Shown piece after piece: positions 47,738-50,790 of a stretch of DNA of 64,000 nucleotides. The notes under the pieces were generated by a model. That model was given only the letters and a program-made list of their open reading frames with translations, searched no databases and was not told the DNA's origin. Every line of letters starts with the position of its first letter. The stretch's first letter is position 1. The position numbers and the translations under genes were made by a program. The stretch comes from Antedon mediterranea (lineage: Eukaryota; Echinodermata; Crinoidea; Comatulida; Antedonidae): contig NC_092674.1 of NCBI RefSeq assembly GCF_964355755.1, positions 13,645,001 to 13,709,000 of the forward strand, read 5' to 3'.

Positions 47738-48196
47738 TATTTGTTTATTTTATTTTATTTTTTTATTTTATTTTTTATCGAAACCAACAGCGATAATTAC
47801 CGCCACTAACAGGTTTGATACAAACAAAGCCAGGACTGTTTAAAGCACCTTGATTGGTCCTAACAATGATCAAGGGCTTCTCTCGTCCAGTGCCCACCTT
47901 GACCAGAGGTCTGAGGCAGATACTAGATGCAGGGGCTGCCATAAGAGTCTGCAGGGGGTCAGCAGTGCTGATTCCAAATGCCTAACGGGACCCCAGCTCC
48001 GAATACAGCACCCGTTATTCCCAGATGGTCTCCCATCCAAGCTCTAACCAGGCCCAACATTGCTTAACTTCGGTGATCTGACGAGAACCGGGGTTTCAAC
48101 GTTGTAAAGCCGTATTCACGTCGCTTAACTTCGGTGATCTGACGAGAACTGGTGTTTCAACGTGGTAAAGCCGTATTCACGTGGTAAAGCCGTATT
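47738..48196 (-). mobile_element. 5S-rRNA-derived SINE
   Basis: The minus strand begins with a 5S rRNA-like head: ACGGCTTTACAACGTTGAAA, TCTCGTCAGATCACCGAAGT, AAGCAATGTTGGGCCTGG, GCTTGGATGGGAGACC (the internal promoter) and CTGGGAATAACGGGTGCTGT. A non-5S body of about 160 bp follows (GACCCCCTGCAGACTC, GGTCAAGGTGGGCACTGG), then a tail of AAATAAAATAAA repeats. Part of the 5S head is repeated upstream (48121-48195), so the head is partly tandem. Copy A lacks it at the matching point. A 5S head, separate body and A-rich tail define the SINE3-type class; it is not a functional 5S gene. Confidence 0.85.
48002..48112 (-). ncRNA. 5S rRNA-like head of the SINE (5S pseudogene)
   Basis: About 110 nt covering nearly the whole length of 5S rRNA. 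The box A/IE/box C internal control region is mostly kept: AAGTTAAGCAATGTTGGGCC and CTTGGATGGGAGACC. Changes in the 5' stem and loss of the normal 3' end (GTAGGCTTT) argue against a working rRNA. It may still drive RNA polymerase III transcription of the SINE. Confidence 0.8.
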
Positions 48197-49167
48197 GTTA
48201 AGAATATATAACATAGATAACAATGTTCTTGTATTTTTTATAACTTTATGTTTATGAATATTGTTACTAGCAAGAATACATTGTGGTTTATATAAGTTTA
48301 AGATAGAAAAACCAGCACTACATAGTTGTTGTATAATTTGCAGCTGTATATAGCAAGAATCAATCACAACTGGATATTAGTTTTAATGTACAAGATTAAC
48401 TTATTAAAAACAAACGACATTTCTTGAGTTTAAACTAAATAGACAGGCATGATTAATTCTTACCAACGTTTTAAAGTAGAACTAAAGAGCAGAATTCTTT
48501 TTAATCATTATTGGCAGTTTATTGATATCTTACAATGGGCCTACATTTAATATATCGCAATTAAGGTGATTAACCCTTTATTTCTCTAGCTAGTTAACTT
48601 GGAACACCATATTTCACACATTGTTAAAGTGTGTCTGTATTTATCGCGGTGGTGTAATTGCTAATTCGTATTTCCTATTTATTTAGCAAAAGCATTAATA
48701 TCTTAAACGACATTTTCTGTAGGTATAGTTAATACCAAGAATAAGTGCTGATACTGCTAATATTCATTTGTCCATATGAAAAACATTAAAACATAAACAA
48801 AATACATTATAAAACTGGCGAATAATAGCAATAACAATAATACAAGATACTTAATTTAAAACATATACAAAATGAAATCACTCTAAAATAAATTGCATTG
48901 CCTGCCTTGTACATCCTACATAAACAAAATTATATGCAATTTAGAGTAGTAGAACTTGATTAGTTCATAAAAAGCTTTTTTTATGAATAGCCTAAAACAT
49001 ACACTATATTCGAAATAGACTAAATTCAAGACTCAAGGGGCGTTTATTGCAAGGAACGTTTTATGGGGAGAGGGGGTGGGGCGGTTTTGCTTATTCAATT
49101 GGCGTTTATTTAAATAACCGTAATTGGTTCTATAGGCCTGGTGTATATATATATATATATAGAGAGA

Positions 49168-49514
49168 GAAGATTCATCAAAAGAAGAAACATATGTCGGA
49201 CTAACTGAAAACCAGTTTAAAACCAGATACAGAAACCATACGTCTTCATTCCGGAACGAAAAACTAAGAAATGCAACGGAACTCAGTAAATATATATGGA
49301 CTCTAAAACAAATTACTCAATTAAATGGAAAATTATAAAGAAATGCAAACCTTACTCAAATATTAACAAAAGATGTAATTTATGTATATATGAAAAGTAT
49401 GTTATTATATGTCAACCAGAGCTATGCTCACTGAACCGTAAGAACGAGTTAGTCTCTACTTGTAGACATAGGAAAAAATTCTTACTAAATTGCAGATCCA
49501 AACAGTTTATCTAA
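49168..49514 (+). pseudogene. GIY-YIG endonuclease domain of a Penelope-like element
   Basis: The frame opens after the truncation. It reads [20 protein letters not shown], where YVG is the second half of the GIY-YIG motif (the first half is lost at the truncation) and the R and H are the catalytic-region residues. [10 protein letters not shown] follows, with the conserved Glu. Near 49320 the frame changes, and the second frame continues with [27 protein letters not shown] and STCRHRKKFLL. The CxxC and CRHRxKF motifs are typical of Penelope GIY-YIG domains. Truncation plus a frame change mean it is inactive. Confidence 0.85.
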
Positions 49515-49579
49515 AACAATAGGCTATTGTATACGACTTCCTGATGACTCACTTCTATTAAGCACTATGAGACAACTGT

Positions 49580-49672
49580 GTCACTTATGTTTTATATTTC
49601 ACCTGAAGAGTGCGGCCAGCTACATGCTGGTCGTACGAAACAAATTTGTAGTGATTAAAACAATGAAGTAAC
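49580..49672 (+). ncRNA. Hammerhead ribozyme (type I) in the Penelope fragment
   Basis: All conserved core positions are present. CUGAAGA (49603-49609) fits CUGANGA. Stem II is 11 bp (49610-49620 with 49626-49636, two G-U pairs, loop UACAU). GAAA is at 49637-49640. Stem III is short: ACA/UGU (49640-49642 with 49647-49649) around a four-base AAUU loop. The cleavage triplet GUA has H17 at 49650. Stem I pairs CAC(U) (49599-49602) with GUGA (49651-49654), then a small internal loop, then UGUUUUA/UAAAACA. Penelope-like elements are known to carry hammerheads of this kind. Cleavage would be after 49650. Confidence 0.82.
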
Positions 49673-49849
49673 CAAGTTTTCTGCTGTTATTTTATTTTTA
49701 TATCTTCCTAGAAATGTATGGATTTACGATTGTAAACGCACCAGCAGGTCTATAAATAAATAAATAATAATATGCATTTATAATACCTTATTATTTATTT
49801 CAAATAAAACACAAATGTATATTGACATCCGTGACATACTGTAACTCTA

Positions 49850-50790
49850 TACAGAGTGTGACAAAGTGCGAGGCAAGCGAGGTATGCGAGGCACGCCAAA
49901 TATTTGTGCGAGGCATCATTTATCTTTTCCAAAAGTGCGAGGCGCAGGCATGCGATGCATATAGTTTACAATTTCAAAAAAGTGCGAGGCATATCTTAAC
50001 GTGCTATATGCTATATTATAGGCCTAATAATCAATTATTTATATTTTTATAATAGGCCTAGCGTATCGAAATAGATTCGTGTATACACTCATCATGTTGT
50101 TTATTTTTATGTAACGATTGTTTTTTTCATTCAAGTCATATCGTGTCAAATTTTACTTTTATAAAAGTGCCCAAACTGTTCAAAAGCTGGGATCCGTATG
50201 CGCCATATTTTAAAAATCTGAACGACAGTCTTCAACTGTCGATAAACAATATTTGTTAGAGCGACACACATCAAATTACTGCCATGTTGTTTGGTATTTC
50301 GAGCGTGTTCACTTTACAATTATTTTAATATGTATCTCGAACATAGCATAGTGAAAATAATATTTTGGCACACCCTTGCGCCTCGATCCGTTAGACCCGA
50401 GAGATAGAAAATCGCTCTTTACTATTTAGCAGGTAGCGGAATGATTCTGCCTTTAGAGGATTCGGCCTCCTATAGCACGTTGTTTCAGCAGCAACGCACA
50501 TACTTCTGTCTGAGCGGCGTGCCAAAGACATTTTTGACATTCCATTCTCTAGGAAATCAACATCAACAATCTCTCGCAAATAAGGTGAACAGCGATTGCC
50601 CAGGACAAGTTCAATAACTGGCGGTGAATAAAAGGTAACTGATATGCCGATCAAAATAACATGCCGCAAAAAAAAAAAATTGCGAGAGAATTCTAAAGCG
50701 CGTGTGAAAAAAGACTTACGTCCGACAATTGTAATACTAGGCCTAAAATTAAACTTTAGCTAATATGCTTAGCCCTAACCTAGAGGCCTA
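49850..50790. other. Unassigned stretch with GTGCGAGGC motifs
   Basis: 49858-50000 holds about eight copies of GCGAGGCA/GCGAGGTA-type motifs. A CpG-rich block at 50380-50700 has a 92-codon frame on the minus strand (ending LLNSKERFSISRV) with no recognised domain. A TTATTT-rich tract lies between. No gene is assigned. Confidence 0.35.

Follow-up and report, generated by a model that had tools for sequence, protein, structure and literature searches.

A predicted Penelope-type hammerhead ribozyme in a truncated copy of a young, high-copy element family of the crinoid Antedon mediterranea

The locus: a truncated Penelope-like element with a hammerhead

The window, a 64,000-nt stretch of contig NC_092674.1 from the crinoid Antedon mediterranea (genome of 354 Mb in 18 contigs), carries a 5′-truncated copy of a Penelope-like element (PLE), which belongs to a family hereinafter called A and retains the end of an ORF together with a 3′ UTR bearing a hammerhead ribozyme (Table 1). 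Long blastn matches to other genomic copies run from 49160 to 49703, the 5′ junction of the window copy being uncertain by a few bases. Most of these matches are about 97% identical to the window copy (96.6–97.1% for ten of them), as compared to 93.7% and 86.7% for those in loci L046 and L052, respectively, and the alignment with L001 shows a 10-base gap in the window copy. The 121-nt stretch with the ribozyme has at least 47 matching places in the genome, at least 40 of which, the window copy among them, show no difference along all 121 nt (of 190 candidates, 40 were scored). Just 3′ of the copy lie several ‘gtgcgaggca’-like motifs (49862–49995). Elsewhere in the window, Rfam identifies a minus-strand 5S rRNA gene at 48000–48117 (77.7 bits), which is overlapped and in part duplicated by a two-copy 61-bp tandem repeat (48062–48182).

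The ORF end contains an endonuclease (EN)-like stretch, putatively of the GIY-YIG type, the motif being named by eye; so called, it is conserved in six of six family proteins, and in the window copy the reading frame is broken just 3′ of it. The EN domain of the family proteins has no Pfam or NCBIfam match, the Pfam matches that did appear (e.g., PGBA_N, in two of the six) look like chance, and a PDB search by sequence and by profile returned nothing better than E 0.22. As the window copy is truncated, the reverse transcriptase (RT) has to be sought in longer sister copies. There, the PADLOC RT profile matches one of six proteins (L001, E 1.2e-5), and Pfam RVT_1 reaches E 0.001 on L062, below its cut-off, with no Pfam RT match in the six proteins of alignment A3 at E 0.1. 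These matches offer a thin indication of a putative RT in the sister copies of this family.

Table 1. Features of the element copy and its ribozyme (window coordinates)
Feature	Position	Strand	Basis
(TA)n run at the 5′ junction of the window copy	49144..49161	.	Read at the locus; 3′-flank reading
5′-truncated PLE copy, family A: RT/EN ORF end and 3′ UTR with ribozyme	49160..49703	+	blastn, 3′-end types
GIY-YIG-like endonuclease stretch of the element ORF	49186..49314	+	150 scored protein matches in the genome, reading frames
Complete type I hammerhead ribozyme including outer stem I	49580..49672	+	Anatomy, unconstrained fold, leave-A-out model
Stem I, 5′ strand	49583..49602	+	Anatomy, fold
Catalytic core C3 U4 G5 A6 N7 G8 A9 (CTGAAGA)	49603..49609	+	Anatomy, alignments
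Stem II, 11 bp, with 5-nt loop TACAT (49621–49625)	49610..49636	+	Anatomy, fold
Core G12 A13 A14 (GAA)	49637..49639	+	Anatomy, alignment
Stem III, 3 bp; palindromic ACAAATTTGT, able to form 10 bp between two copies	49640..49649	+	Anatomy, fold, two-copy fold
H17 = A (A17), predicted cleavage 3′ of this base	49650..49650	+	Anatomy
Stem I, 3′ strand	49651..49669	+	Anatomy, fold

The hammerhead is complete and of type I, with the full core, stems I–III and a GUA triplet. An earlier note, made from the bare sequence, had described CUGAAGA, an 11-bp stem II, GAA(A), a minimal stem III and GUA in the right order, and each of these lies where it was placed. The 5′ strand of stem I consists of an outer helix, a 7-bp distal helix (49588–49594), an internal loop (49595–49598) and a proximal TCAC (49599–49602), which pairs with GTGA at 49651–49654. 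The internal loop between the proximal and distal helices is asymmetric (TATT vs T), and, in agreement with the same note, stem I is paired on both flanks of it, in the fold as well. The 11 pairs of stem II join 49610–49620 to 49626–49636, and stem III (ACA/TGT, 49640–49642/49647–49649) encloses AATT. Folded without constraint, 49575–49675 adopts the hammerhead as its minimum free-energy structure (−28.6 kcal/mol, z −3.13; 1 of 200 shuffles folds equally well), with loops capping helices II and III and with helix I open; stem III is missing from the centroid. The N7 position is occupied by A, whereas the usual base is U and A is less active there. Shortly 3′ of the predicted cut, a three-codon frame, ATGAAGTAA, lies at 49663–49671; it is retained in family A and in three of the four group C copies read (L056, L057 and L003 are among the loci named) and could be a tiny upstream ORF or simply part of outer stem I.

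Related hammerheads and compensatory changes

Genome-wide, the pattern CTGANGA...CGAAACANNNNTGTA matches 187 times, and its reversed control twice. By our own grouping, the hammerheads fall into six sequence groups, A–F, five of which were seen 3′ of a PLE ORF: unlike hammerheads follow the EN end of related ORFs in groups A, B, C, D and F (e.g., L056 and L058 for C and D). In several C and D copies the EN end was not found within the short stretch fetched, and for group E (L059) there is no EN in the 701 bases fetched. Conversely, among 38 EN-similar loci (L001–L038), a scan that also required four pairs at the foot of stem II found the exact motif in 14, the motif with one core mismatch in 3 more, and none in 21. 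A covariance model built without group A (R1, see below) recovers a hammerhead in seven of these 21, namely L006, L010, L019, L020, L021, L023 and L037. Overall, we count 28 distinct hammerhead versions in 63 instances, one of them being the retrozyme type discussed below.

An alignment of groups B–E (A4, 14 rows) has 95.9% of its cells paired as compared to 82.5% in shuffles and at most 45.1% in slid registers, with both sides changed in 6 of 16 pairs. Two measures are no higher than in the shuffles, namely the count of doubly changed pairs, which 87 of 500 shuffles reach, and that of further pair types, which 470 of 500 reach. Alignment A2 (16 rows, 12 pairs) is similar, three of its pairs having changed on both sides; only five stem II pairs were counted in it, given that it misaligns group C past the fifth. 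The core CUGANGA...GAA...H17 is present in all 16 rows of A2, which were picked by pattern, and also in group F, which was found free of any pattern, and N7 is A, T or C across groups. Row selection relied on patterns that dictate every core position except N7, together with stem III and, for some rows, the foot of stem II, and part of the invariance at these sites is therefore built in; likewise, the stem III pairs never vary, being fixed by the pattern, and are uninformative on covariation. No pattern demanded the pairs that covary in stem I and in the distal part of stem II. Thus, the predicted stems I and II are supported by compensatory changes among groups, which the earlier note had proposed to look for in other genomic copies. 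Most A copies, groups C and E and two D copies carry the 10-nt palindrome of stem III, which B, F and two other D copies lack.

Recognition by models and the question of chance

The earlier note had also proposed scoring the site with the Rfam hammerhead type I model, and here the outcome is the one that it had named as refuting: Rfam returns no hammerhead in the window at the gathering score, nor on 49300–49900 at E 10. Genome-wide, RF00163 (Hammerhead_1) has two weak matches, which do not include the window hammerhead, and RF00008 has none. The Rfam hammerhead models are likewise silent in seven loci holding sister motifs (L001, L002, L003, L056, L058, L059 and L060), and CTGATGA cores occur among these. 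Because all seven are also negative, the miss looks like a limit of the Rfam model. The core and helix order of RF00163 are the same as in the window hammerhead, for which that model reports no score, the long stem II being a possible reason. PLE hammerheads of such kind would thus seem to escape the current Rfam type I model.

A motif this small might also be assembled by chance in AT-rich repeat DNA, and the bare CTGANGA...CGAAA pattern is indeed expected 0.57 times per 64-kb window. Once all three helices are demanded, 1500 random windows with a dinucleotide make-up similar to that of the real one yield two loose and no strict matches, against one in the real window. The model R1, derived from A4 with group A left out, has a single match in the window, at 49596–49663 and in register (60.7 bits, E 7e-16; the E-values are rough owing to a short calibration, and R1 was trained on relatives of group A, which means that the match is no test against unrelated sequence). 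Together with the covariation of the stems in the other groups, these results reduce the probability of chance assembly to practically nil, and we rule it out. On 29 further loci, R1 gives 15 matches up to E 1, 11 of them at E ≤0.002. Six of these 11 (29.8 bits) belong to group F, with an intact core and a U-U at the foot of stem II. Four weak matches (L025, L026, L027 and L031, E 0.11–0.83) were set aside as chance.

Ends, junctions and age of the element family

Family A copies terminate in either of two 3′ ends, namely a short end that leads directly into (TA)n or a hairpin tail of about 57 nt followed by (TA)n; the ends of family B follow the same scheme, an analogous hairpin included. Three or more TA units come after 37 of 45 family A ends (some loci overlap, the script assigned a few ends wrongly, and the 45 include the L061 tandem junction), as compared to 836 of 18278 (4.6%) 30-nt stretches in the window, which alone supplied the background. 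The window copy ends at the short type, without the tail, and is among the 8 of 45 ends that lack TA on the right; TA is present on its left.

Thirteen of 17 close-neighbor hammerhead pairs are head-to-head (100 of the 187 genome matches used). Among 11 family A pairs of this kind read by eye, 10 combine one short with one tailed end, and the eleventh (L053) has one tail with its other end not resolved. Inverted head-to-head dimers were seen in L042–L048, L050, L051 and L053, many of them joined with hardly any intervening bases or none; they look like the outcome of priming on both strands of a break. A tandem junction is present in L061, where the hammerhead-bearing 3′ UTR and its tail are followed at once by the beginning of an ORF region, and in L075 a group F hammerhead precedes an ORF. 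Hence, the sister copies display a pseudo-LTR tandem junction, 5′ truncation, inverted pseudo-LTRs and a 3′ extension. The available parts of two papers describe 5′ truncation, inverted and tandem pseudo-LTRs and 3′ extensions as features of PLEs (PMC8969392, PMC11167929). The assignment of the hammerhead to a Penelope-like fragment, as in the earlier note, is the best reading.

That note had also held that the rest of this copy has decayed and that every core position of the ribozyme is kept all the same. With an identity of about 97% to most long matches, the copy is no old ruin. Moreover, single-base changes break the core in the near-identical sisters L032 and L035, the core of the family B copy L017 is lost at G12, C3 is changed in the more distant copy L021, and in L034 a blastn gap removes the whole ribozyme. 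We reject selection for the core in a decayed copy: the ribozyme is kept here because the family is young and because truncation from the 5′ side spares a ribozyme that sits near the 3′ end, the position that also explains its retention in truncated copies at large. The PLE family has been active recently, and the window copy is one of its truncated passengers.

A coexisting retrozyme-like family

The genome also holds a second hammerhead type, CTGACGA-GATCTAATAAGATC-GAAACAGTACTGTC, with a GUC triplet (102 matches vs 0 for the reversed control), examples being those in L087 (C2:18386342 and 18386627), L088 and L089. Some of the matches are spaced 280–285 bp apart in tandem. The presence of this type raises the alternative that the window hammerhead is that of a small non-autonomous retrozyme and not of a PLE. 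The window type differs from it in stem II, the stem III loop and the triplet, and in many copies it follows the EN end of a PLE ORF. We consider this alternative very improbable and reject it for the window copy, which has the PLE ORF end and is not a small non-coding repeat.

The two families share (TA)n flanks. In 19 of 21 loci read, (TA)n comes right after the retrozyme-like hammerhead, L089 and L097 being those without it; the 21 comprise 20 fetched loci and L046 (25 matches, one scored per locus), and leaving out the five picked or fetched earlier for nearness to PLE or EN matches, 14 of 16 run into (TA)n. Three retrozyme–PLE pairs, involving two retrozyme places, lie within 500 bp of each other as compared to 0.03 expected (63 retrozyme and 100 PLE places, contigs C1–C6), and in L046 and L090 elements of the two kinds face each other across one (TA)n. 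Such common flanks fit PLE-driven mobilization of retrozymes. PLEs as movers of retrozymes have been suggested in print (PMC7761336, available in part). No mention of microsatellite targets of animal retrozymes was found among the papers listed (12 of 18 and 12 of 36) or among the terms searched in PMC7229834.

Do insertions record cleavage?

If cut RNA served as the insertion template, many copies should begin at the cut. The 26-nt segment following the cut has 137 exact copies in the genome, and only 2 of these have a base other than A before the cut; this count misses starts preceded by a chance A, starts after the cut and copies changed within the 26 nt. Letter by letter, one of the two (L113) is a 3-nt deletion. 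The second, L133, is a head-to-head dimer: one of its two elements begins exactly at the cut, and its mate begins at most one base away if one substitution is allowed. The control site 3 nt upstream of the cut gives 0. The other 5′ ends, read in loci without an intact listed hammerhead and in loci already fetched, are scattered through the ribozyme (79 matches, 66 distinct contexts). Five of them (L103, L124, two in L125, and L134) cluster at the palindrome TCGTACGA, 20 nt 5′ of the cut, which suggests that junctions form at palindromes.

Since only 2 of 137 copies lack A before the cut, and only one starts there, the inserted copies seem, as far as their junction sequences tell, to come mainly from RNA uncut at the ribozyme. 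This agrees with reports on PAc, a Poseidon element of Anolis: in the part of that paper available, dead hammerhead mutants insert normally in vitro, and RNA-seq has no reads beginning or ending at the cut (PMC11167929). Tentatively, and with rather less than an even chance of being right, we propose that in this genome insertion templates are not produced by the PLE hammerhead, whose role would lie elsewhere, for example in freeing a translatable unit from tandem transcripts, and that the same PLE machinery, recognized by its (TA)n target, inserts the separate retrozyme family. If true, this would provide genomic support for retrozyme mobility driven by PLEs.

The same observations can be turned toward a deflationary reading, in which the motif is a real relic of PLE hammerheads that is catalytically dead or irrelevant, its shape being kept as a structural signal in the 3′ UTR that serves protein binding or priming. 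Copies that almost never start at the cut would be expected of such a relic, as would the insertion competence of the dead PAc mutants; moreover, the PAc hammerhead is described as cutting only with protein added (PMC11167929, in part). Mere shape would not need the core, so the recurrence of the full core in groups with unlike stems, including the pattern-free group F, counts against a dead relic, an argument weakened by the pattern-based choice of most rows. On balance, we regard it as unlikely.

Proposed function and comparison with known systems

We are fairly confident that the locus represents a PLE-type type I hammerhead in the pseudo-LTR of a recently active PLE family, here in a 5′-truncated copy, which would cut after A17 in tandem transcripts. 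In a transcript crossing two tandem units, cleavage after A17 (49650) would separate the 3′ UTR of the first unit from the hairpin tail and ORF of the second, leaving the 5′ end of the downstream RNA roughly 120–150 nt before the start codon and possibly releasing a unit-length mRNA. The two-copy fold of the window hammerhead, with a 10-bp helix III, reaches −68.0 kcal/mol vs 2 × −28.6 kcal/mol, raising the possibility that cutting may be helped by pairing of two copies via the palindromic stem III. PLE hammerheads reportedly cleave as dimers, as the title of one study has it. Newt and axolotl hammerheads have been reported to cut better as dimers (PMC6155905, seen in extract).

The hammerhead described here lies in a well-preserved PLE family and is ordinary in kind: as the earlier note stated, PLEs carry hammerheads, which is in print in the available parts of PMC6155905 and PMC7761336. 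The in vivo job of these ribozymes is called a mystery in PMC7761336, as far as its accessible text goes. With the minimal type I PLE hammerheads (Cervera and de la Pena 2014; Lunse, Weinberg and Breaker 2017; via excerpts of PMC7761336, PMC6155905 and PMC11167929) the window ribozyme shares its type, its place in a PLE pseudo-LTR and a short stem III suited to dimers. In contrast to them, usually devoid of helix III, it has a 3-bp stem III with a palindromic tetraloop, and it further differs in having A at N7 and GUA as its triplet. The closest parallel in arrangement is the PAc hammerhead, which, in the portion of PMC11167929 at hand, likewise lies at the pseudo-LTR/ORF junction of a tandem GIY-YIG PLE with a tail at the insertion ends and an AT-rich target. 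However, PAc is cut 26 bp inside the ORF, whereas the cut predicted here lies about 120–150 nt upstream of it, as counted in L061, and the flanks here are long (TA)n, unlike those of PAc. The metazoan retrozyme hammerheads (PMC7229834, in part) are also of type I with a short stem III, and this genome too has tandem units of about 280 bp; those retrozymes are small non-coding repeats, whereas the window copy is part of a protein-coding PLE. What goes further than the known systems is the near-absence of starts at the cut site and a separate retrozyme-like family with the same (TA)n flanks. With six hammerhead groups, a young high-copy PLE family and a coexisting retrozyme-like family, this one genome allows cleavage, templates and shared targeting to be compared side by side.
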